DNA from: Gluconobacter thailandicus F149-1 = NBRC 100600
Lineage (GTDB): Bacteria; Pseudomonadota; Alphaproteobacteria; Acetobacterales; Acetobacteraceae
Reading direction: 5' to 3'
Assembly: GCF_000964465.1 (NCBI RefSeq)
Contig: NZ_BANH01000005.1
Location: 1-64,000 of the forward strand
DNA length: 64,000 nt
In this document: piece by piece, positions 48,213-64,000 of the stretch
Layout: every line of letters begins with the position of its first letter
How positions within the stretch are numbered: the first letter of the stretch is position 1
The notes under the pieces: model-generated
What the model was told of the DNA's origin: nothing
The model's input: only the letters and a program-made list of their open reading frames with translations
Database searches by the model: none
Program-made: the position numbers and the translations under genes

Positions 48213-48689
48213 TCAGGGGGAAACAAAATGGCCGACACCTGGCCACAGATGGCTCACTTCCCCCGCTTTCCAGTGCCATACGGCAACGGCACCACACCCG
48301 ACCATGACAAGGCTGACGCCCCATGCAGCCAACCAGCTTCCCGTGCTTCCAATCATGTGACGAACCGGCGCTTCTGATGCAGCGACCGGTCCAACCGGTG
48401 CACGGGAATGCAGGACGGACTGACGACGCTCAATTTCCCTTGCTGCCAGACTGCACACACCTGCTGACTGTTGCTTCAGAGGTCCTGCGCCAGGTTCAGT
48501 TCCTTCATCCGGCTCTGCGAGAGAGGCCACAGCATCCTCCACACCATGCCCTTCCTCATCAGGCATGGCGGCTGAAGCCTCCGCATCCCAGCTTTCCCCA
48601 CAATTTGCGCAGCGCAACCGGCGCGCATGGTCCAAAAGTGCCTGAGGCACTTCAAAAACCGCATGACAGTGGGGACATTCAAGACGCAT
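48213..48689 (-). CDS. MJ0042-type zinc-ribbon membrane protein
   Basis: A 158-residue protein. The N-terminal zinc ribbon (CPHCHAVFEVP ... LRCANCGESW) has four Cys of the MJ0042 type. The middle is acidic and disordered, and a membrane segment lies near residues 120-143 (LAAWGVSLVMVGCGAVAVW). Such proteins often stand beside ftsE in alphaproteobacteria, as here, divergent with about 120 bases between. Role unknown. Confidence 0.75.
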   Translation of the reverse strand: MRLECPHCHAVFEVPQALLDHARRLRCANCGESWDAEASAAMPDEEGHGVEDAVASLAEPDEGTEPGAGPLKQQSAGVCSLAAREIERRQSVLHSRAPVGPVAASEAPVRHMIGSTGSWLAAWGVSLVMVGCGAVAVWHWKAGEVSHLWPGVGHFVSP

Positions 48690-48811
48690 CACAGTATCCT
48701 TCAAAAATCAGGCCACACCGACATCAGCCTGATCTGAACTGGCTTGCCCATATGAAGGGGTTACCGTTAATAAATGGTTAATGTGCCTGCAATACCTCTG
48801 AGCGCCCATTC

Positions 48812-49483
48812 ATGATCCGCCTTCGAGATGTGTCTCTGAAACCCGCTGGCGTTGGGCAACCCGTTCTGCACGGCATGACCCTGAGCATTCCACAGGGAGA
48901 GTTCCGCTGGCTGCTGGGACCATCGGGGGCAGGCAAATCCAGCCTTCTTCGCCTTCTGACACTCGGAGCACGCCCGGCGTCCGGCCAGATGGACATTCTC
49001 GGGACATCCGTAACAGGAGCAAGCCGGGGCGCATTGCGGAATCTGAGAAGACGCATCGGATTTGTGCCGCAGGACTACCGCCTGATTGGTGAATGGACCG
49101 TCTTTGACAATGTCGCCCTTCCGTTGCGCTTAAGGGGCCGATCTGAGCGCGAGATCCGGCAGGAGGTTTTCTCCGTTCTGGAGTGGCTGGACGTTGCCGC
49201 TTATGCTCATTCCCGCCCCACCATCCTGTCAGGTGGAGAGCAACAGCGCGTTGCGATCGCCCGCGCCCTGATCGGGCGCCCTGACATACTTCTGGCGGAT
49301 GAACCCACAAACGCTCTTGAAGAGTCTCAGGCCAGACGCCTGCTCTCCACATTCCAGGAACTGATTGATCTCGGTACAACCGTGATCGTCGCAACACATA
49401 ACGAATCTCTGGTGCGGGAAGCCCCCGCGCAGTCGATCATGCTCCGCGACGGCACCCTTGATCCGCAGGCTGTCGCCCCTTGA
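48812..49483 (+). CDS. ftsE: Cell division ATP-binding protein FtsE
   Basis: A 223-residue ABC ATPase. Walker [10 protein letters not shown] near residue 37-45, the signature [15 protein letters not shown] near 137, Walker [10 protein letters not shown] near 160 are intact. With FtsX it controls peptidoglycan hydrolases at the septum. The stop overlaps ftsX (4 bases). Confidence 0.94.
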
Positions 49484-54742: not shown

Positions 54743-55768
54743 ATGACCGAAACCGCCGCTTTCTGGCTTCCCGTGGTCTGGGCCGTTCTCGCGGCCTCTG
54801 CCATCTTCCTTTACGTCATCCTTGACGGCTTTGACCTCGGCATCGGTGTCCTGTTCCTCAAGGAACGGGATCACGATCACCGCAACGTCATGGTCAACAC
54901 GGTCGCTCCTGTCTGGGACGGCAATGAAACCTGGATGATCTTTGGCGGCGCCGCCCTCTATGGCGTCTTTCCGGTCGCGTATGGCACCATCCTGCCAGCG
55001 CTTTACCTGCCAATCCTGTTCATGCTGCTGGCTCTCATTCTTCGCGGTGTCTCTTTTGAGTTCCGTTTCAAGATGAAGTCCCCCCGGTCCCAGTTCTTCT
55101 GGGATGCGTCCTTCTGCGGCGGCTCCATTGTCGCAGCCTTCATGCAGGGCGTTATCCTTGGCACGCTTGTTCAGGGCATCCCCGTCCAGAACAACGTGTT
55201 CGTTGGAACGTCGCTAGACTGGGTCACGCCGTTTGCCCTGTTCTGTGGCGCCGCAGTGACCATCGGCTACGCGCTTCTGGGCTCCACATGGCTGATCTGG
55301 CGTTGCGAAGGCGAACTGCAGGATACGATGCGTCGCGTCTCTTATGCGCTTGCTGGCCTGATGCTGCTGGCGATCGTCGCCGTCTCCGCATGGACGCCGC
55401 AGCTTCACACGACCTACATGCAGCATTGGCTTGAATGGCCGCAGCTTGCTCTGGTCCTGCCGGTTCCGGTTGCTGTCGTTGCTGTCGCTGGTGCGCTCTT
55501 CCTGGGCCTGCGTAACCGTAAGTCCCACCTGTTGCCGTTCATCGCGACACTGGGTCTGTTCTTCCTGTGCTTCTCCGGACTGGGGATCAATGTCTGGCCG
55601 TATATCGTGCCGCCGACAATCACCATCTGGCAGGCCTCTTCCCCGCCGAGCAGTCAGGCTTTCGTCCTGTTCGGTGCCATGTTCCTGCTGCCGGTCATCC
55701 TCGGATACACGATCTATTCCTATTATGTGTTCCGCGGAAAAGTGACGGCAGAGCATCACTACCACTGA
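54743..55768 (+). CDS. cioB: Cyanide-insensitive bd-type quinol oxidase subunit II
   Basis: A 341-residue CydB-family subunit, eight membrane helices. The N-terminal ILDGFDLGIGVLFL and WDGNETWMIFGGAALYGVFP are family signatures, and the C-terminal PVILGYTIYSYYVFRGKV is standard. It starts 6 bases after cioA. Confidence 0.94.
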   Translation: MTETAAFWLPVVWAVLAASAIFLYVILDGFDLGIGVLFLKERDHDHRNVMVNTVAPVWDGNETWMIFGGAALYGVFPVAYGTILPALYLPILFMLLALILRGVSFEFRFKMKSPRSQFFWDASFCGGSIVAAFMQGVILGTLVQGIPVQNNVFVGTSLDWVTPFALFCGAAVTIGYALLGSTWLIWRCEGELQDTMRRVSYALAGLMLLAIVAVSAWTPQLHTTYMQHWLEWPQLALVLPVPVAVVAVAGALFLGLRNRKSHLLPFIATLGLFFLCFSGLGINVWPYIVPPTITIWQASSPPSSQAFVLFGAMFLLPVILGYTIYSYYVFRGKVTAEHHYH

Positions 55769-55996: not shown

Positions 55997-56713
55997 TCAG
56001 AAGGTATCTTTCTGAAGGCGCAATTCTGAAAAGCGAGCGACATCTGATGCTCTCAGAAACGGGTTCGTTGCCCGCTCGGTGCCAAGAGAGACTGGCAAAG
56101 TCGGGCGCCCTGCTTCCAGAAGCGTTTCGACTTCAGCAGCCCGGGCCTTGAGGGCTGGGTTGTCCGGCTCAACATGCAACGCGAAGGCGATGTTGGAGCG
56201 GGTATATTCGTGCCCTGCACAAACCAGCGTATCATCTGGAAGGACATCATAACGATGCAGACTCCGGAACAGCTCCTCTGCCGTCCCTTCGAGCAGACGC
56301 CCACATCCCGCGCTGAACAAAACATCCCCGCAGAAAAGCGCGGGCACTTCCGGGACAACATAGGACAGATGCCCCACAGCGTGGCCCGGCGTCAGCAGAA
56401 CCTCTACGGCCACGTCACCAATAAAAAACGTGTCTCCATCTTCAAGGCCACGATCCAGTCGAGGCAGCCATTCCGGCTTCTGGGATGGGCCGAACACCTT
56501 CGCCCCGTAGCGTTCCCGCAAAGCATTCACCCCGCCCGTATGATCCGCGTGATGATGGGTCAGAAGGATCAGATCCAGTCGACCTTCACCCAGAAGGTCG
56601 ATCACCGGCCCTGCCCCACCAGGGTCCACGACAGCGCGCGACCCATCACCGGCCGTCAGAAGCCAGACATAATTATCTGACAGAACCGGGATAGCTTGAA
56701 TATCGAGTGACAT
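55997..56713 (-). CDS. gloB: Hydroxyacylglutathione hydrolase (glyoxalase II)
   Basis: A 238-residue metallo-beta-lactamase-fold enzyme that frees lactate and glutathione from S-lactoylglutathione. The metal motif THHHADHTGGV near residue 51, the GHAVGHLSY His and the CAGHEY segment near 166 are present. Length is standard. It is divergent from a methyltransferase gene, a common alphaproteobacterial pair. Confidence 0.94.
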   Translation of the reverse strand: MSLDIQAIPVLSDNYVWLLTAGDGSRAVVDPGGAGPVIDLLGEGRLDLILLTHHHADHTGGVNALRERYGAKVFGPSQKPEWLPRLDRGLEDGDTFFIGDVAVEVLLTPGHAVGHLSYVVPEVPALFCGDVLFSAGCGRLLEGTAEELFRSLHRYDVLPDDTLVCAGHEYTRSNIAFALHVEPDNPALKARAAEVETLLEAGRPTLPVSLGTERATNPFLRASDVARFSELRLQKDTF

Positions 56714-56745
56714 GACGGTTCCCCTGAACTTCGCTTGCTGATTAG

Positions 56746-57471
56746 ATGCATATCATGCTGACGCGCCTGACACGTTCCCGTTCCGAAGATGCCGCGGCCT
56801 TTTACGAAAGCCGGACAGGAGTGCGTACCGCCGCGCTCCTGAACCGGCGACTGCAGGCCATATTGCCAGATCTCCGGGCACGTCGCCTGCTCGGCATAGG
56901 CTATCCCGGCCCCTATCTTCCCGCCAATGCGGGCTATGCGGTTTCGGGGCGCCTCCAGCATCCACAGACCCAGCGACCTTTTCCTCAGACACTTCAGGAT
57001 TGCCTCGTTGATAGTGGGCGCCTGCCTTTCGATGACCTGTCGATGGACACGGTCCTGGCCGTCCATGGGCTCGAATTTACCCGCTCGGCTCCGGATTTTC
57101 TGCGTGCCATCTGGAAAGTCATGACCGATGACGGGCAACTGATCCTTATTGTCCCGAACCGCTCCGGCTACTGGGCCCATACGGACGCAACGCCCTTCGG
57201 TCACGGTACCCCTTTCAGTACGGCGCAACTCACCCGTCTGCTGGAACAGGGGCTGTTCTGCATTGAGCAGCACACAGGCGCTCTCATGGCACCCCCTGCG
57301 CTTCTTTCCAGAATTTCGGGCACCCTTCCCGAGCGCGTGGGAAAAATAACGCATTATCCCTGTGCGGGCGTGCATATCGTCGTCGCGCGCAAGAATGTCT
57401 ATGCCGGACTACCACTTATGGAAGAAAAGGCCCGTACAGCCGTTCCCAGACAGCTTGCGGAACCTGCCTGA
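56746..57471 (+). CDS. SAM-dependent methyltransferase (type 11-like)
   Basis: A 241-residue protein with a class I methyltransferase core: LLGIGYPGPYLP at motif I, DTVLAVHGLEFTRS at motif III/IV and a basic C-terminus. Substrate is not known. It usually sits beside gloB in alphaproteobacteria. Confidence 0.8.
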   Translation: MHIMLTRLTRSRSEDAAAFYESRTGVRTAALLNRRLQAILPDLRARRLLGIGYPGPYLPANAGYAVSGRLQHPQTQRPFPQTLQDCLVDSGRLPFDDLSMDTVLAVHGLEFTRSAPDFLRAIWKVMTDDGQLILIVPNRSGYWAHTDATPFGHGTPFSTAQLTRLLEQGLFCIEQHTGALMAPPALLSRISGTLPERVGKITHYPCAGVHIVVARKNVYAGLPLMEEKARTAVPRQLAEPA

Positions 57472-57532
57472 AAAACGCCTTCTTTGTGGCGAATTCTTGA
57501 CCCTAGCTTTCTGTGCCGTAAGAGTGCGTCCC

Positions 57533-58210
57533 ATGTCGTTGATCCAGTCCTTCAAGCTCGTCCTGTCGCCGCCGCATCGCGCCGCGACTCCCTTCCTCGC
57601 CGCCGGCGCCCTCGTCGGGCTCATCGGTCGGGCGACGCCGTGGCGCTTTACGCGTCTTCTCGGCAAGGCAGGCATCGCGTTCTCCGCGTTCTGCCTGTAC
57701 TTCTTCCGTGACCCGAAGCGCACACCGCCGCCGGGTGCAAACCTGGTTCTGGCTTCAGCCGATGGCCGTGTTACAGGCGTGTCTCTGGTTTCGCCACCAC
57801 CGGCTCTGGAAATGGGCACCACACCAGTCTGGCGCGTCTCGACGTTCCTGTCCGTCCTGGATGTCCACATCAACCGGATGCCAGTCGCCGGGCAGGTCAC
57901 GAAGATTGCCTATCATGCAGGCAAGTTCCTGAATGCCAGCCTCGACAAGGCGTCCGAACATAACGAGCGCAACGAAATCCGCCTGACGCTTCCGGACGGC
58001 CGCAATATCGGCGTCGTGCAGATCGCAGGCCTGATTGCCCGCCGTATTCTCTGCTTCGTGGAAGAAGGCGATCATCTGGAAGCTGGCGAGCGTTTCGGCC
58101 TGATCCGCTTTGGCTCTCGCACTGACGTATATCTGCCGCCTGGTGTTGAGCCGATCGTTGTTGAAGGGCAGACCATGATCGGGGGCGAAACCGTCCTGGC
58201 GAAACTCTGA
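57533..58210 (+). CDS. psd: Phosphatidylserine decarboxylase proenzyme (short type)
   Basis: A 225-residue pyruvoyl enzyme that makes phosphatidylethanolamine. The self-cleavage site is Gly194-Ser195 in LIRFGSRTDVY, and VHINRMPVAGQV near residue 111 with EHNERNE near 142 are family signatures. The short length is typical of the alphaproteobacterial class. The ATG at 57533 begins the conserved N-terminus; the frame is open 57 codons earlier. pssA follows after 14 bases. Confidence 0.93.
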   Translation: MSLIQSFKLVLSPPHRAATPFLAAGALVGLIGRATPWRFTRLLGKAGIAFSAFCLYFFRDPKRTPPPGANLVLASADGRVTGVSLVSPPPALEMGTTPVWRVSTFLSVLDVHINRMPVAGQVTKIAYHAGKFLNASLDKASEHNERNEIRLTLPDGRNIGVVQIAGLIARRILCFVEEGDHLEAGERFGLIRFGSRTDVYLPPGVEPIVVEGQTMIGGETVLAKL

Positions 58211-58224
58211 GCCAGACCGCGCCC

Positions 58225-59106
58225 ATGACCATTCCCGAGACGGCTGAACTCAACCGTCCAGCCCGACGCCGTCGTATTCGCCGCAGACTGCGCCGTATGG
58301 GACGTACTCCCCGCACCCGCGTGCGGGGACCGTCTTTCAACCGGCTGATCCCCAACATCCTGACCATGCTTGGCCTCTGCGCTGGCCTGAGCGGGATGCG
58401 CTTTGCACTGGAACACCAGTTCGCCCACGCGGCAGTCGCTCTTCTCATCGCGGCCTGTATCGACGGGCTTGACGGACGGATTGCACGCCTCCTGCGCGGA
58501 ACCACACGGTTTGGCGCAGAATTCGACAGTCTGTCTGACTTCGTGTGCTTTGGCGTTGCGCCGTCTTTTGTGCTGCTGATGTGGTGCCTTGAAGATGCCG
58601 GACGTTATGCCTTCGTGCCGTGCATCATGTTCACAGTCTGCATGGCGCTGCGTCTGGCGCGCTTTAATGCGAGCCTCGATGACGATGACAAGCCGGACTA
58701 TTCCGCGAACTTCTTCACAGGTGTTCCCGCTCCGGCAGGAGCAGGCATCGTGCTCTTTCCAGTCTTTCTGGGACTGGAAGCGGACCGTATGCATGCCGAT
58801 GGTCTTGCTGCCCTCGCCCGTGAGCCGATTGTTTCCGCCATCTGCCTTATCCTGACAGCACTTCTGCTGGTTTCCACATTACCAGTCTGGTCCTTCAAGA
58901 ACTTCAAGGTTCCAGCCCGCTACGTGCTTCCGCTGATGCTGGGAACCGGCCTTTACGCCGCTGTTCTCGTTGCTGACCCGTGGGGAGCCCTTGCTGCGGC
59001 TGGTCTGTTCTATGTCGCCATTCTGCCGTTTTCCCGCCGGTCCTATCACCGGTTAAGAAAAGCAGCCGAGGACATGTCCGAGACGGTTGAAGAAGAAACC
59101 GCCTGA
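58225..59106 (+). CDS. pssA: CDP-diacylglycerol-serine O-phosphatidyltransferase
   Basis: A 293-residue membrane enzyme that forms phosphatidylserine, the substrate of Psd. The CDP-alcohol phosphotransferase motif DGLDGRIARLLRG then FGAEFDSLSD is near residue 85. A basic N-terminal segment of about 35 residues precedes the helices. psd and pssA form one operon. Confidence 0.94.
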   Translation: MTIPETAELNRPARRRRIRRRLRRMGRTPRTRVRGPSFNRLIPNILTMLGLCAGLSGMRFALEHQFAHAAVALLIAACIDGLDGRIARLLRGTTRFGAEFDSLSDFVCFGVAPSFVLLMWCLEDAGRYAFVPCIMFTVCMALRLARFNASLDDDDKPDYSANFFTGVPAPAGAGIVLFPVFLGLEADRMHADGLAALAREPIVSAICLILTALLLVSTLPVWSFKNFKVPARYVLPLMLGTGLYAAVLVADPWGALAAAGLFYVAILPFSRRSYHRLRKAAEDMSETVEEETA

Positions 59107-59111
59107 AACAG

Positions 59112-59142
59112 AAAAAGCCGCCGGAGACCCCGGCGGCTTTTT
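59112..59142 (+). terminator. Terminator after pssA
   Basis: AAAAAGCCGCCGG, loop AGACC, CCGGCGGCTTTTT then more T: a strong 13-pair stem with U-run 5 bases after the pssA stop. Confidence 0.92.
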
Positions 59143-59187
59143 TTTAATCTATAAGGCCGAAGACACTCTCCGGCCTTCAAAACACTC

Positions 59188-60123
59188 TTATTCCGTTACA
59201 TCCCAGAGCCATGCCGCGCCGCGAACGCCAGAGCTGTCACCGTGCAGGTTCTTCACGATCGGCGTCGTGCAGACAGGCGTAATGACGTGCTTGCTCAACA
59301 GGGGCGGAACGCGATCATAGAGCGACGCAAGGTTCGAAATGCCGCCCCCCACAACAATAACGTCCGGGTCAAGAAAGTTGATCGCCAGCGAACATGCACG
59401 AGCAAAGCGTTCCATGTAACGATTAAGCGCTGCAATCGCAGCCTGATCCCCGTTCGCAGCCGCATCTTCAATGCCCGCAGTGTTCCGGTTGCCGTCGCCT
59501 TTCCAGTCCGCAGCAAGCGCTGGACCCGACAGATAGCGCTCCATGCACCCTTTGTTGCCACAGAAGCACGGGCGCGGCTCGCCATCTTCCGGCAGAGGCC
59601 AGGGAAGCGGAAGGTGACCCCACTCACCTGCAATGTGATGCCGCCCCTCAATGACCCGACCATTGTTCACAATGCCCGCACCCATGCCAGTTCCGACAAT
59701 GATACCGAACACTGTCTGAGCACCCTTCGCAGCCCCGTCTGCCGCTTCTGAAAGTGCAAAGCAGTTTGCATCATTCTCGGTGCGGACCGGGCGGGCCAGA
59801 GCGGATTCCAGATCCATGCCGAAAGGCTGGTCATTCAGCCACGTGGCATTGGCATTCTTGATCAGACCCGTTTCCGGAGAAATGGACCCGGGAATACCGA
59901 TCCCCAGCGTGGACGTACTCTGACCGGCAGACACGCGGTGACTTGGAACAGCCCCCAGACGATGGTCCACGCTCGTTACGAGATCACGGATTGCAAGAAT
60001 AGCTTCCGGATAGACACCCGGATTAGGAATGCGCTCACGCAGGACAAGCTCGCCCTGGCGATTGAGAACTGCGATCTCGATCTTCGTTCCACCGAGATCG
60101 ATACCAAGGCGATAATCAGCCAT
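59188..60123 (-). CDS. ROK-family sugar kinase
   Basis: A 311-residue sugar kinase. N-terminal DLGGTKIEIAVL binds ATP, TENDANCFALSEAADGAAKG has the catalytic Asp, and the ROK zinc site is GHLPLPWP then CFCGNKGCMERYLSG. The substrate is probably fructose, mannose or N-acetylglucosamine/glucose; sequence alone does not settle it. The ATG at 60123 begins the fold. Confidence 0.9.
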   Translation of the reverse strand: MADYRLGIDLGGTKIEIAVLNRQGELVLRERIPNPGVYPEAILAIRDLVTSVDHRLGAVPSHRVSAGQSTSTLGIGIPGSISPETGLIKNANATWLNDQPFGMDLESALARPVRTENDANCFALSEAADGAAKGAQTVFGIIVGTGMGAGIVNNGRVIEGRHHIAGEWGHLPLPWPLPEDGEPRPCFCGNKGCMERYLSGPALAADWKGDGNRNTAGIEDAAANGDQAAIAALNRYMERFARACSLAINFLDPDVIVVGGGISNLASLYDRVPPLLSKHVITPVCTTPIVKNLHGDSSGVRGAAWLWDVTE

Positions 60124-60296
60124 TTCATGCCCTGTACTGTTTTGATGGCTCCCGACACGGGTAGCCAGACACGGATTAACGCACTGTATGCGCCAGTCTG
60201 CTTGAACGGGAAAGCCTCTGCGGGCAAGTCGTCCCATCACAAAAAAACAATGTTTCTGTTTTTAGCGACATGACCGGACACAAAAGCCGGACGTTT

Positions 60297-60782
60297 TCAG
60301 CGTCCAGCCAACCGCTGCATACCTGAAAGAATATCCTGCGCAGACGGCGGACAGCCGGGAATGGTCTTGCGAACCTGCGTCAGGGCCTTGAGGCCTCCAA
60401 GCGTGGCGTATCCAGCCCCGAACAGGCCACCATCGATCGCACAGGCCCCAACGGCGACCAGGCTTTTCCCCGGCGGCATGGCTTTCCAGACGCGATCAAG
60501 CATCTGCACGCAGGCGCGACTCATGGCACCCGTCACCAGCAACCAGTCCGCATCCGCCGGATCGGCCACACGTCTGAAACCATATCGCTCAAGGGCAAAC
60601 GCCGAGCCGCACAGGCTCTCGACTTCCATGGCACACCCTTCGCAGCCACCAGTCTCAAGCACATACAGGCTGATCATCCCGGTTCGGGCGGGTGCATCAT
60701 TTTCCGGAGAGACCCTCCAGCGCGAGGCATCAATGAACGCATGCAGCACACTCAGCGGGCCGGTCTTCTGAAACACGCTCAC
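60297..60782 (-). CDS. Hydrogenase-4/complex I-like small subunit (HyfI/NuoB-like)
   Basis: A 161-residue protein with the [4Fe-4S] N2-type cysteines: Cys47 and Cys50 in GGCEGCAMEV, Cys114 in GACAIDGG and Cys144 in PGCPPSAQD. Its start overlaps the large-subunit stop (ATGA). Electron transfer to its partner is expected, but the partner lacks the metal site of true hydrogenases. It is the last gene of the operon. Confidence 0.85.
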   Translation of the reverse strand: MSVFQKTGPLSVLHAFIDASRWRVSPENDAPARTGMISLYVLETGGCEGCAMEVESLCGSAFALERYGFRRVADPADADWLLVTGAMSRACVQMLDRVWKAMPPGKSLVAVGACAIDGGLFGAGYATLGGLKALTQVRKTIPGCPPSAQDILSGMQRLAGR

Positions 60783-62218
60783 ATCGCCACTCCTGATGGG
60801 GACAGGGCCAGAGAGCGCAGAGCGGCAGGCAGTCGCTCTGGCGTTTCACCTTGCAGCACAGCAGGCAGAACCGACAATAACGACACCGAGGGATCACGAG
60901 CCTGAACGGCATCAATCTTCCCATTCCTGAGGCGCACCCAGTACCAGATATCTCCGCGGGCTCCCTCCGCAACGCCGATGCCTTCCTGCGTGGCCTCAGG
61001 CGCAGGCTCGTCATCATCCATACCGATGCTGCCGAGAATACGCTGGATCAGAGCCAGGGAGTCGCGGATCTCGGTCAGGCGCAATGCATCTCTCGCCGCG
61101 CCATCACCTTCACTTGATCCTGTCGAGCGCAGGGCATCCAGTCGCATTCCGGCTTCCCTCCGACGCACGTCCAGACTGCGCCCCGAGGCTCTGCCCACCA
61201 GCCCACCAACCGCAAACTCCCGCGCCTGCGCCGGAGACAGAACAGCAAGGCCCTTCAGTCGCGGGGCAAAAACGGATTGCAGCTCCCGCAACTGGGCCAT
61301 GCGTGGCTGCATCGCACTCACAACCGCCTGCGCCAGCGGAACGATCTCCAGACCCACGCGAAAACCATCACATCGCACCAGATCTGTCAGTCGCCGGGAA
61401 ATGCCCTGTTCAGCACAGGCGGAAGCAATCGCCTCACGTGCATGCTCGCAATGTGTGGCCAAAAGCCCTGCATCCACAGATCTGGCTGTGCGGGCCATGT
61501 CAAACAGGTGAACAGACATCCGCTCGATTTCCAGCAGGATCATCCAGCAGTCCCGCACGCCCGGACCCGGCTGCAAACCGCGGGCCTGAGCCACAGCCCG
61601 GCAGAACGCAAGCGGATGCGCCACAAACCCTCCGGCGGTCATCCGGGACACCAGAGGCAGGGATTCCTCAGGTGTCAGACCGATCATCCGGTGCAGTACA
61701 CCGCGATGCGCCAACCCGGCATTCACGGAGACCCCCTGAACTTTTCCGCGGACAACATCAAAAGACAGTTCCAGCGGCCCCGTCAGACCCGACTTTTCGG
61801 CAGGGAGAACTGTACGCCCGGCAACAGGACGAGCCGCCTGCCCACCCGGTCCAGGGCGGGAAGATAACGGCCATGTTGCCTCCCACACCCCTTCATCCAG
61901 TGCAGGCTGACCATCCCCGGAGGCGCTCATCGCCTCGACGCCCCACAGATCATAGGCCACCCGCTCGCCCCATTCCGCAGCCGGGAAGCGCGATGACGGC
62001 GCAAGATAACGGCGCTCCTCCATTGTGGTGCTGGCTATGAGTGGACAATCACCTTCAAGCAGCAGAACATAAACGCGGTGTTCATCCGCCCAGCAGGACA
62101 GAAGCGACAATGTCGCCCCCGGCGCTGCCAGCATGGCTTCCCACTGTTCCGCGTCCAGAGAATAATGAGACAGCGCGACGCGCTCACCACCCCGGATAAT
62201 CCTTCCCATCTCGCTCAT
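60779..62218 (-). CDS. Hydrogenase-4 large-subunit-like protein without [NiFe] cysteines (HyfG/NuoCD-like)
   Basis: A 479-residue fusion of a NuoC-like N-terminal part (ERVAYDLWGVEA near residues 85-96) and a NuoD/HyfG-like part (GLAHRGVLHRMIGLTPEES near 168). In real hydrogenases the second half carries RxCGxC near its start and DPCxxC at its end. Here the first site reads RMTAGGF (Arg192-Phe198) and the last DPSVSLL (Asp442 onward), so all four metal ligands are gone. The ATG at 62218 overlaps the upstream stop. This matches energy-converting-hydrogenase-related (Ehr) proteins. Confidence 0.85.
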   Translation of the reverse strand: MSEMGRIIRGGERVALSHYSLDAEQWEAMLAAPGATLSLLSCWADEHRVYVLLLEGDCPLIASTTMEERRYLAPSSRFPAAEWGERVAYDLWGVEAMSASGDGQPALDEGVWEATWPLSSRPGPGGQAARPVAGRTVLPAEKSGLTGPLELSFDVVRGKVQGVSVNAGLAHRGVLHRMIGLTPEESLPLVSRMTAGGFVAHPLAFCRAVAQARGLQPGPGVRDCWMILLEIERMSVHLFDMARTARSVDAGLLATHCEHAREAIASACAEQGISRRLTDLVRCDGFRVGLEIVPLAQAVVSAMQPRMAQLRELQSVFAPRLKGLAVLSPAQAREFAVGGLVGRASGRSLDVRRREAGMRLDALRSTGSSEGDGAARDALRLTEIRDSLALIQRILGSIGMDDDEPAPEATQEGIGVAEGARGDIWYWVRLRNGKIDAVQARDPSVSLLSVLPAVLQGETPERLPAALRSLALSPSGVAM

Positions 62219-63306
62219 GGATGCCACCCCGGTGTTGGATGCCAGGCCAGCAGCAGAGGCCCGCACAGCCCGACCACGAGAAGAGCAGCCTCAACCACCG
62301 GGACCATACCGGCTTTCAATGCCAGACCAGACGGCATCAACCCCGCAAAACGAACGTGCCTTAATCCCGGCAACAGGCACACAATCATCAGCGCAAGAAG
62401 GAGCGGCTCGAGAGAGCGTCCAATCGCGAGAAGCGCACAGAAAACCGGCCAAGGCGCCATCCCATCGGCGACACTCCGGTAATGGTCAGCATTTCCTTCC
62501 CGTTCCAGCACAGCCAGACCAAGCGACGTAATGAGCAGAAGGACAATTGCACTGCCTTCCCCAACCGCTGCGGCAATCGCTCCAAGAGCCGCCAGAACTG
62601 GCAGGAACTGCCCTCGCCCTTTCGACTGCACTGCCATCTTCATGATGAGCGTCCCGAAGCCCGCAACCAGAACCAGCAAATGCACAAGCGCATGATTATC
62701 AAGCCGCAGCATCAGAAGGATCGCGGCAAAGCGCAGACCCGTATCCAGCAGAGCAGCCTCCGGCTCCGGAACGGGCGACGGGCCCAGTCCAGCCATCATG
62801 CAAAGTCCAACTGTCAGCAGAACAGGCCCAAGCGGAGACTGCTCCATGGAAAGCAACGACGCCCCCAGAACACCCAGAATTACCCCCCCAAGCCGGGACC
62901 TGGCCATGTCCCAGACAATCGCCGCTTTCTGTGCCCCGCGGCCTTCCCGCCACGCCAGCAGAACAGTCCCCGCCCCACACAGTACCGTCACGGCGAAAGC
63001 AGAATGGACATTCAGCGCCATGAGCGCACAGCCTGTCACCAGAAAGGGCAGGATGCGGCCAGTTCTATCCCTTGCGGGAGGCAGCAGCAGCGGCATGACG
63101 GCTACGGCACAGGAGCAGGCAGCTGCCAGCGCATCGGCCCCTGGCATCAACCAGACAGCAATCGGCGTCATGATCGCCCCTGCAATGGCAAATGTCAGGC
63201 TACTGGCTGGCTGACGGTTTGCGGGCGTGAGCATGAGGAGGAAGGCCGCCAGAAGCGGCCAGACCGTGACGGCAAACAATGTCCCGACCGGAGCAAGCGG
63301 ATGCAT
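62215..63306 (-). CDS. Short HyfF/NuoL-N-like ion-channel subunit
   Basis: A 363-residue membrane protein with roughly ten hydrophobic segments, shorter than the 480-530 residues usual for HyfF or NuoN. The segment LDNHALVHLLVLVAGFGTL resembles the conserved HAxxKALLF helix of NuoL/N, with His in the Lys place. It is rather divergent, so the assignment rests on operon position as well. Start and stop overlap both neighbours by 4 bases. Confidence 0.65.
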   Translation of the reverse strand: MHPLAPVGTLFAVTVWPLLAAFLLMLTPANRQPASSLTFAIAGAIMTPIAVWLMPGADALAAACSCAVAVMPLLLPPARDRTGRILPFLVTGCALMALNVHSAFAVTVLCGAGTVLLAWREGRGAQKAAIVWDMARSRLGGVILGVLGASLLSMEQSPLGPVLLTVGLCMMAGLGPSPVPEPEAALLDTGLRFAAILLMLRLDNHALVHLLVLVAGFGTLIMKMAVQSKGRGQFLPVLAALGAIAAAVGEGSAIVLLLITSLGLAVLEREGNADHYRSVADGMAPWPVFCALLAIGRSLEPLLLALMIVCLLPGLRHVRFAGLMPSGLALKAGMVPVVEAALLVVGLCGPLLLAWHPTPGWHP

Positions 63307-63827
63307 CAGTTTTCCTCCACGCGGCGCCAGGCCAGACGCGGCAGTAACGTCACGCCCAGCGCACCCAGCACGCCCCAAAGCGCAACAGCCGCTGCAAACA
63401 ACGGCCAGGATTGCAGGATACACGCCATGACGATCAGACCGTCAGCCGCCACCAGAAGGCCCGTAAACTGCACAAGAGACGGCCCGAACGCCGCGCCACA
63501 AAGCCCGATCAGAACAACACCGGCCCCGAGAACGGGCGCGAGCCCCAGACTTGCGCCGGACAGGCCCAGCGCCAGCAACAGCAGAAGAGCACCAACCACA
63601 GGCAATACAGCGCCCCGATCTGGCGCATGGGGCGCAAAACGTCGCAGCCAGATCCAGGCACCGATATTCAGCCCGACCAACGTAACCGACGTCAGCAACG
63701 CCAGCAGGCCACCACACACAGTCGCTCCGGCAAACGCACAGACCAAACCATAAAACGGTAATCCCCGCCCATCCCGGCCCAGACCCGCCAGTGCCAGAAG
63801 GAGCAGAACGCCAAACCCGACAATCAT
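63306..63827 (-). CDS. HyfE-like membrane subunit
   Basis: A 173-residue protein with about six membrane segments, opening MIVGFGVLLLLALAGLG and containing ADGLIVMACILQSWPLF near the C-terminus. Size and order between the channel-like gene and the partial gene fit HyfE, the NuoK-like component. Sequence conservation with known HyfE is weak. The overlap with both neighbours is 4 bases. Confidence 0.6.
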   Translation of the reverse strand: MIVGFGVLLLLALAGLGRDGRGLPFYGLVCAFAGATVCGGLLALLTSVTLVGLNIGAWIWLRRFAPHAPDRGAVLPVVGALLLLLALGLSGASLGLAPVLGAGVVLIGLCGAAFGPSLVQFTGLLVAADGLIVMACILQSWPLFAAAVALWGVLGALGVTLLPRLAWRRVEEN

Positions 63828-64000
63828 GTCGCGAACCTCCCGGCCAGCGCCAGAAGAAGCGCCACGCCCGCAAACAGTGCCGTCAGCCGTTCGCTGCGCT
63901 CCTGTGCGGTCAGTCTCAATGTCACAAGCACCATCACCACGAGCAGGATACGCGCCAGAAGCGCCGCCAGCCCCACGAACCATCCGGAAAGGCCCGCCTC
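63824..64000 (-). CDS. Partial membrane subunit, NuoH/HyfC-like C-terminus
   Basis: The 3' part of a gene whose start lies beyond the window. The visible 58 residues contain a helix (AALLARILLVVMVLVTLRL), a basic-acidic break (TAQERSERLT) and a final helix (ALFAGVALLLALAGRF). This resembles the C-terminal end of HyfC/NuoH proteins. Its stop overlaps the next start as ATGA. Confidence 0.55.
   Translation of the reverse strand, partial: EAGLSGWFVGLAALLARILLVVMVLVTLRLTAQERSERLTALFAGVALLLALAGRFAT

Follow-up and report, generated by a model that had tools for sequence, protein, structure and literature searches.

A Hyq/Ehr-type relative of complex I in Gluconobacter without [NiFe] ligands and with few proton-path charges

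The stretch of DNA analysed here, which we call the window, comprises 64,000 nucleotides of Gluconobacter thailandicus (bases 1-64000 of contig C187, 217602 bases long, in a genome of 3.43 Mb). At its end lies an operon of six genes on the minus strand, in the order B-C-E-F-G-I, that runs from window position 60297 to contig base 65937, with gene B and most of gene C beyond the window end. Compared by sequence with known systems, the encoded complex is a six-subunit relative of complex I from the branch that holds Hyq and Ehr, and it lacks the [NiFe] ligands, the cysteine trio of HyqG and the quinone-associated His/Tyr pair. In this complex and its nearest kin, nearly all of the charged residues that carry protons in the membrane arm of relatives have been lost. 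We favour, at a probability of roughly 45%, the interpretation that it is a non-electrogenic, non-pumping, membrane-anchored iron-sulphur (Fe-S) oxidoreductase derived from the Hyq type. Within the complex I superfamily, we place it as a new variant in the Hyq/Ehr branch.

The genes of the operon are as follows (aa, amino acids).
Contig 64681-65937, minus strand: gene B, 418 aa, TTG start assumed, wholly outside the window.
Window 63824-64000 (C-terminal part), continuing to contig base 64684, minus strand: gene C, HyfC/HycD/NuoH-like, 286 aa.
Window 63306-63827, minus strand: gene E, HyfE-like small membrane subunit, 173 aa (canonical 219), with Lys68, Glu159 and Glu178 lost and a weak profile-profile (HH) alignment.
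Window 62215-63306, minus strand: gene F, HyfF-like antiporter-type subunit, 363 aa, with its proton-path residues lost and a weak HH alignment to HyfF.
Window 60779-62218, minus strand: gene G, large subunit, HyfG/HyqG/NuoCD-like, 479 aa, matching Pfam Complex1_49kDa at E 2.2e-12.
Window 60297-60782, minus strand: gene I, small subunit, HyfI/HyqI/NuoB-like, 161 aa, GTG start, matching Pfam Oxidored_q6 at E 2.3e-23.

An earlier note on this DNA had described five genes that overlap by 4 bases each. The tight operon ending at 60297 stands; the count becomes six, and the 4-base overlap holds at four of the five junctions, with an overlap of 1 base (TGATG) between E and F. None of the six genes contains an internal stop. 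By its large subunit, the closest named relative is Gluconobacter frateurii NBRC 3264 (94% identity).

The large subunit and its relatives

Large-subunit relatives are widespread in the family: 269 of 299 genomes match gene G at E <= 1e-3, the weakest of which may be NuoD. Across the class 143 of 337 genomes have a match; among the matches listed, those outside the family with E < 1e-20 share 27-34% identity, and most others cover only the NuoD-like part. We took loci from 29 family genomes, 10 other alphaproteobacteria in which the match was strong, 8 further family genomes and five of the six named Gluconobacter loci, together with L002, which is the window's own contig. These total 53, or 54 with L105, which proved to be a complex I locus.

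The loci fall into two sets. Fourteen are canonical, 10 of them outside the family and four within (L060, L067, L107 and L115); their HyfB and HyfF are full-length, with E values of 1e-63 to 5e-114 against the E. coli proteins, although contig ends truncate the loci L103 and L115. The remaining 39, all Acetobacteraceae and including Gluconobacter, are derived, with shorter and diverged membrane subunits. In a quick tree of the large subunit, in which 15 forks stay open and the long rows L064 and L065 are unsure, the derived rows occupy one side of a single branch (Shimodaira-Hasegawa-like approximate likelihood-ratio support, SH-aLRT, 91), so that one origin of the derived form is the simplest reading.

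Two canonical loci have features of their own. L103 (G466:C21) belongs to a 0.9 Mb genome from outside the family that is marked 100% complete, and carries Hyq-like C, E, F, G and I, gene C being the one cut by the contig end. Near the operon of G298, a 937-aa frame on the opposite strand (L107:13844-16654, oriented coordinates) contains two HyfA-like stretches (E 3e-10).

The solved structures nearest to gene G by sequence in the PDB are complex I Nqo4, a NuoCD and subunit 5 of formate hydrogenlyase (FHL). All NCBIfam matches fall below their cut-offs, with NuoD/FpoD at the top for G and NuoB for I. An alignment of 14 canonical, 39 derived and two E. coli rows (HyfG and NuoCD) places three motifs of the Gluconobacter protein; L105 stood among 40 supposedly derived rows in the first version and was removed from later ones.
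Window 61625-61645, minus strand: RMTAGGF, counterpart of the N-terminal RxCGxC (HyfG RVCGIC), with Cys to Thr and Cys to Gly.
Window 60791-60808, minus strand: ALSPSG, counterpart of the C-terminal DPCxxC (HyfG DPCYSC), with Asp to Ala, Cys to Ser and Cys to Gly.
Window 60875-60895, minus strand: DPSVSLL, opposite HyfG RAATYANW and not the DPCxxC site.

The four places of the Ni/Fe cysteines thus read T, G, S and G. The earlier note had recognised RMTAGGF correctly and had taken DPSVSLL for the second motif, the true counterpart of which lies 29 residues further on. Its conclusion survives this displacement: all four cysteines are absent, and the protein is a Hyf/Ehr-type relative without a [NiFe] site. 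The full cysteine set occurs in 0/14 canonical and 0/39 derived proteins, L110 having a single Cys at one place.

Other sites of the large subunit have also changed. The three cysteines of the HyqG type, each found in 12 of the 14 canonical proteins, occur in none of the 39 derived ones. The quinone residues of NuoD (His224 and Tyr273 in E. coli NuoCD numbering) are Thr and Ala in Gluconobacter; the derived set has the Tyr in 0/39 and the His in 1/39, and the canonical proteins are also without them, with Ile at the His place in 14/14 and Gly or Ala at the Tyr place. The beta1-beta2 loop hardly varies among the 14 canonical proteins (GPVHAGIIEPGHF) but does so among the derived ones. At the place of the canopy Asp, 14/14 canonical proteins have Asn and 38/39 derived ones have Ala or Gly. 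Still present in nearly all rows, as in HyfG or NuoD, are the His and Gly of HRG, the Arg of RMTAGG, ExER and DxR (a list computed with L105 included).

Could the complex be a working hydrogenase with a metal site of a kind not yet recognised, as has been claimed for the Hyq of Azorhizobium, which is without CxxC pairs? The gene set equals hyqBCEFGI, and deletion of hyq altered the H2 output of A. caulinodans (PMC3357923, excerpt). Against this, the three fully conserved cysteines of HyqG are missing from all 39 derived proteins and the E-channel of HyfC is mostly lost; changes to the HycD counterparts of that channel cut H2 production by E. coli FHL by 98-99% (PMC9474812, excerpt). We therefore regard a hydrogenase as extremely unlikely. 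Of the Hyp proteins, HypD was the one searched for; it was detected in 0/26 genomes of the genus, and the control found it in E. coli and three more of the 14 named genomes; NiFeSe_Hases was likewise found in 0/26.

Charged residues of the membrane arm

The membrane subunits are most readily compared as counts of residues kept in canonical proteins (E. coli included) and in derived ones. Derived rows number 31 for B, which 8 of the 39 loci are without, and 33 for E, which 6 are without; a 731-aa open reading frame (ORF) of L064 may be B, and F and E of L066, L108 and L109 were assigned by place. In HyfF, E143, K232, H347 and K351 are kept in 15/15 canonical and 0/39 derived proteins, and H343 and E406 in 14/15 and 0/39. 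In HyfB, E142, K221, H228, K252, H344, H348 and E407 go from 13/13 to 0/31, and K352 from 13/13 to 1/31. HyfE K68 and E159 fall from 14/14 to 0/33 and E178 from 14/14 to 1/33. The E-channel residues of HyfC, each present in 13/13 canonical proteins, persist in few derived ones: E146 in 4/39, E196, D203 and E218 in 2/39 each and E282 in 1/39. HyfC E138 (13/13 canonical) is kept in 12/39, Gluconobacter among them. At HyfC E282, 26/39 derived proteins carry a different charged residue, Arg.

We take the residues lost from HyfB and HyfF to be the Glu of transmembrane helix (TM) 5, the Lys of TM7 and TM8, the His/His/Lys of TM10 and the Glu of TM12; HyfF Lys232 would presumably be the TM7 lysine. 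Its counterpart in the window is a methionine.
Window 62794-62796, minus strand: Met171 of F, opposite HyfF Lys232 (Met171 preferred over Met170 by HH alignment; codon placed by hand).

The proteins have also shrunk. From canonical means (proteins as cut here, E. coli included) of 687 aa for B and 497 aa for F, the lengths fall to 418 (39% shorter) and 363 (27% shorter) in Gluconobacter, and most derived F proteins are without the WLPDAH loop. A count made independently of alignment points the same way: lysines in hydrophobic surroundings (hydropathy limit 1.0) number 2.87 (1-5) per canonical F versus 0.87 (0-4) per derived F, and 3.77 (2-7) versus 0.71 (0-4) for B, the canonical and derived ranges overlapping.

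How far the derived membrane proteins can be aligned differs among them. Gene C is clear, with an HH alignment to HyfC at probability 99.9 and E 3.8e-35. The HH alignments between derived and canonical profiles are weak for F (E 7e-4, probability 25.6, 229 columns), B (E 6e-3, probability 6.2, 156 columns) and E (E 3e-3, probability 11.3, 52 columns). Pfam had no match for E and F of the window, nor for B, C, E and F of G. frateurii; on canonical L097 it matched B (1.3e-55), F (6.2e-53) and C (2.8e-37), with E below the cut-off. In L066, B had no match and F only a sub-threshold one to Proton_antipo_M (E 0.0013). In the 20 derived loci listed, the canonical profile still matches B in seven, F in one and E in one. 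The seven matched B proteins (E 4e-14 to 6e-43) are also without the HyfB residues, which argues against a mere fault of alignment. Gene order and intermediates likewise point to the homology of derived F, B and E.

Experiments on related complexes suggest what such losses may mean. Replacement of lysine by Met or Ile in Nqo13 and Nqo12 was made to block the proton path (PMC11496545, excerpt). In E. coli FHL, several antiporter residues of HycC could be changed with no significant loss of H2 production (PMC9474812, excerpt). We infer the correspondence of the Hyf residues to those of Nqo and Hyc, HycD lying outside the alignments made here. Given that several HycC changes did no significant harm to H2 production, what B and F have lost bears on pumping, against which it argues, more than on turnover.

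The earlier note had proposed an ion-translocating complex. Such a redox complex, in the mode of Ehr or Hyq, would now have to move its protons through non-canonical residues. Gluconobacter has retained the four membrane subunits under constraint, which is strongest on E (ratio of nonsynonymous to synonymous substitution, dN/dS or omega, 0.01-0.05 in 6 pairs), and another charged residue, Asp, stands at the HyfB H344 column in 19/31 derived B. The retained HyfC E138 and the dispensability of HycC residues in FHL can be read in the same direction. Counter to this, the charged residues of HyfB and HyfF were lost together, B and F have shortened, and the WLPDAH loop has gone from most F; the columns affected would be those at which substitutions block the path in Nqo13 and Nqo12. 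With nearly all proton-path charges lost from the four membrane subunits and no Pfam match for E or F, that part of the proposal is not supported, and we consider ion translocation unlikely.

The iron-sulphur cluster, selection and possible function

Among PDB entries, FHL subunit 7 matches the small subunit best (7z0s_G; E 4.9e-21). Alignment of small subunits confirms that it keeps the four cysteines named in the earlier note.
Window 60351-60644, minus strand: the four Fe-S ligand cysteines 47, 50, 114 and 144.
Window 60642-60644, minus strand: Cys47 (codons of all four placed by hand).
Window 60633-60635, minus strand: Cys50.
Window 60441-60443, minus strand: Cys114.
Window 60351-60353, minus strand: Cys144.

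Of the 57 small subunits aligned, among them E. coli HyfI, 52 read CCCC at the ligand places, and the cysteines are present in 36 of the 39 derived genomes, a figure that includes five in which the small-subunit gene lies outside the operon stretch taken. One canonical protein, in L104, reads CCCA, perhaps through a fault of alignment or assembly.

We propose that the membrane subunits would anchor the NuoD-like/NuoB-like pair and provide its scaffold, and that the small subunit, through its single N2-type [4Fe-4S] cluster, would carry electrons from a soluble donor to an acceptor near the membrane surface, electron transfer proceeding without ion pumping. Counterparts of HyfA, HyfD and HyfH were not found in the operon by a search that covered the loci taken; among the 54 loci, only the complex I locus L105 has a HyfH/NuoI-type subunit. 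Since the operon has no ferredoxin subunit of this type, the cluster could be reached directly by the donor. HyfH matches do occur in 6 of 26 genus genomes. One, in the window strain beside its nuo genes, is strong and is taken as NuoI; the rest are weak (E 4e-5 to 8e-4) and lie inside frames of 428-449 aa.

All six genes are under purifying selection in Gluconobacter, with omega far below 1. Ratios were computed by the method of Nei and Gojobori (NG86) for hand-chosen pairs, 12 for the large subunit, the small subunit and F and 6 for E, C and B. They are 0.03-0.10 for the large subunit in 11 of 12 pairs (0.21 in one), 0.07-0.16 for the small subunit, 0.04-0.12 for F in 11 of 12 pairs (0.27 in one), and 0.08-0.20 and 0.08-0.21 for C and B; the pair L121-L122 is an outlier (0.16-0.27). 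Flanking genes that we take to be an aldo/keto reductase, pepA and pssA served as controls (0.05-0.11, 0.04-0.07 and 0.00-0.03 in 6 pairs each), whereas psd was left unused because 4 of its 6 pairs yielded no ratio. In some pairs dS exceeds 1, up to 2.62 for REF-L006, so these estimates are rough.

The earlier note had pointed to the operon and its altered sites across Acetobacteraceae, and to disabling mutations in close relatives, as the places to look. The operon and the altered sites are conserved in relatives, and the large subunit occurs once, free of internal stops, in 26/26 genus genomes. It is also kept in the genomes of only 1.9-2.0 Mb of genus g33. These patterns, together with the low omega of all six genes, make it very unlikely that the complex is a decaying relic without function. 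Such decay might otherwise have been suspected from the shrinkage, the loss of known functional residues, the looser constraint in genus g100 (where B, C, E, F and I have omega 0.21-0.39) and the detachment of the small-subunit gene in several lineages.

The main rival to electron transfer is a pseudoenzyme: a membrane scaffold, or a redox or oxygen sensor, that performs no electron-transfer turnover and in which the Fe-S cluster, if still present, is structural or sensory. Nearly every catalytic or pumping site tested outside the Fe-S ligands is degraded. Genus g100 has kept one cluster cysteine of four in 3/3 genomes (G157, G100 and G200, with loci L066, L108 and L109 respectively): the ligand places of the small subunit read G, C, G and S. 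The stretches compared are nonetheless free of stops, and the large subunit is constrained (omega 0.09-0.15). These genomes have only one other small-subunit match, identical in score among the three, which is probably the NuoB that belongs to complex I. The small-subunit gene was found in all 16 genomes checked, next to G in 2, roughly 1-4 kb off in 8, and far off or on another contig in 6 (G022, G149, G192, G085, G037 and G046). Counter to this, all derived small subunits outside g100 (36 of 39) retain the cluster cysteines, and the conserved neighbourhood is a string of apparent housekeeping genes that indicates no partner. We hold a pseudoenzyme to be less likely than not. The earlier note had argued that retention of the Fe-S site marks a working enzyme and not decay; purifying selection does speak against plain decay in Gluconobacter, and the argument from Fe-S retention is weakened by g100.

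Several observations weigh against our preferred interpretation of a non-pumping oxidoreductase. The complex is known here through its genes, and the conserved cysteines, three of which g100 has dispensed with, are the whole basis for the electron-transfer step. The [NiFe]/quinone cavity is degraded too, its beta1-beta2 loop and canopy Asp being unconserved in the derived set. HyfC E138 persists in Gluconobacter. The residue losses are read from low-identity alignments (about 19% from gene G to HyfG and 28% to canonical rows, with F, B and E lower still), and AlphaFold, run on shallow alignments, was of no help (mean pLDDT, its per-residue confidence, 48.6 for F with 7 sequences and 44.7 for G. 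frateurii B with 6). Finally, the omega values of B and C are somewhat above those of the flanking control genes.

Strong conservation, despite the lost metal site and proton residues, suggests that the complex probably does a job so far undescribed. In the open-licence literature of PMC we found no account of a hydrogenase-like complex in acetic acid bacteria, and the main texts of papers on the G. oxydans B58 knockout collection (PMC8602642, PMC12041372) contain no word beginning with 'hydrogenase'. One scenario, for which we would give less than even odds by a wide measure, is that the ancestor of one Acetobacteraceae clade abandoned both redox catalysis and pumping, that the body of this complex I-family assembly was kept as a conserved pseudoenzyme for a new role, and that one genus then dropped the last cofactor site.

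Complex I relatives are read as an ion pump plus a redox site, and the loci described here form a natural series from the canonical Hyq type to a form seemingly without either. Gluconobacter, being cultivable, offers a system for asking what the body of complex I does without pumping or H2. The series also cautions against naming derived operon genes formate hydrogenlyase or hydrogenase-4.

Genome context and comparison with known systems

Proton_antipo_M was matched in 1 of 26 genus genomes, that of the window strain, with three matches on contig C189; the other 25 are without recognisable antiporter subunits and hence presumably without complex I. In the window strain, the region marked by G000:C189:42864-47139, 48512-48823 and 56351-56689 has NuoLMN-type genes with a NuoI-like and a NuoB-like gene nearby, and apparently encodes a genuine complex I. 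The full set of complex I genes is present in Gluconacetobacter diazotrophicus, in contrast to GOX (G. oxydans) (PMC2765452, excerpt), and the statement on GOX agrees with the single occurrence of antiporter genes among the 26 genomes.

The operon lies in a conserved neighbourhood (window 55997-60240 and L002 6044-8987). From their sequences we take its genes to be pepA, holC and an aldo/keto reductase upstream, and pssA, psd, a methyltransferase and a gloB-like hydrolase downstream. Each recurs in at least 21-32 of the 54 loci, and a presumed ROK-family kinase in at least 8 of 54; these counts are lower bounds, the loci differing in reach. The aldo/keto reductase (upstream in 23 of the 54 clustered loci) was considered as a redox partner and set aside because the whole gene string looks like plain synteny. 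An ORF near this neighbourhood (window 54743-55768), clustered in 5 loci, presumably encodes subunit II of a cytochrome bd/CIO (cyanide-insensitive) oxidase.

Among known systems, respiratory complex I shares NuoB- and NuoCD-like subunits with the Gluconobacter operon, which differs in having no NuoI module and in the replacement of the quinone His/Tyr pair. Hydrogenase-4 and FHL of E. coli (Hyf and Hyc) have homologous subunits; the operon is without HyfA, HyfD and HyfH, and the Ni/Fe cysteines, the canopy Asp and most E-channel residues are missing. Of the features of group 4 [NiFe] hydrogenases, the CxxC..C..C of the small subunit is present, and the RxCGxC/DPCxxC ligands and HypD are absent. 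The mycobacterial cluster Rv0082-Rv0087 presumably also comprises relatives, and the COG3261 naming presumably applies here.

Ehr is a group 4 relative without Ni/Fe ligands whose reaction is unsolved (PMC6349859, excerpt). The Gluconobacter complex shares its hydrogenase-like core without those ligands. Ehr is suspected to move ions through antiporter-like subunits, whereas in Gluconobacter the residues concerned are gone.

The closest likeness, absent from the earlier note, is to Hyq of A. caulinodans (hyqRBCEFGI), which has been called an endo-hydrogenase and claimed to be an H2:quinone oxidoreductase; its HyqG is without both CxxC pairs and retains Cys 258, 491 and 497 of 504 aa, and its HyqI has four cysteines (PMC3357923 and PMC2650096, excerpts). 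The Gluconobacter operon has the same six structural genes in the same order, and both are without HyfA, HyfD and HyfH. Canonical loci, compared with Hyq as published, fit it by gene set and cysteines, the alphaproteobacterial L097 having Cys 258, 490 and 496 of 503 aa. Gluconobacter, in contrast, has lost the trio, the antiporter residues and most of the E-channel, and its B and F are shorter by 39% and 27%. Thus, hydrogenase, Ehr pump and Hyq enzyme each fail in a tested defining feature, and we apply none of these names; the derived loci are relatives of Hyq without its three-cysteine mark.

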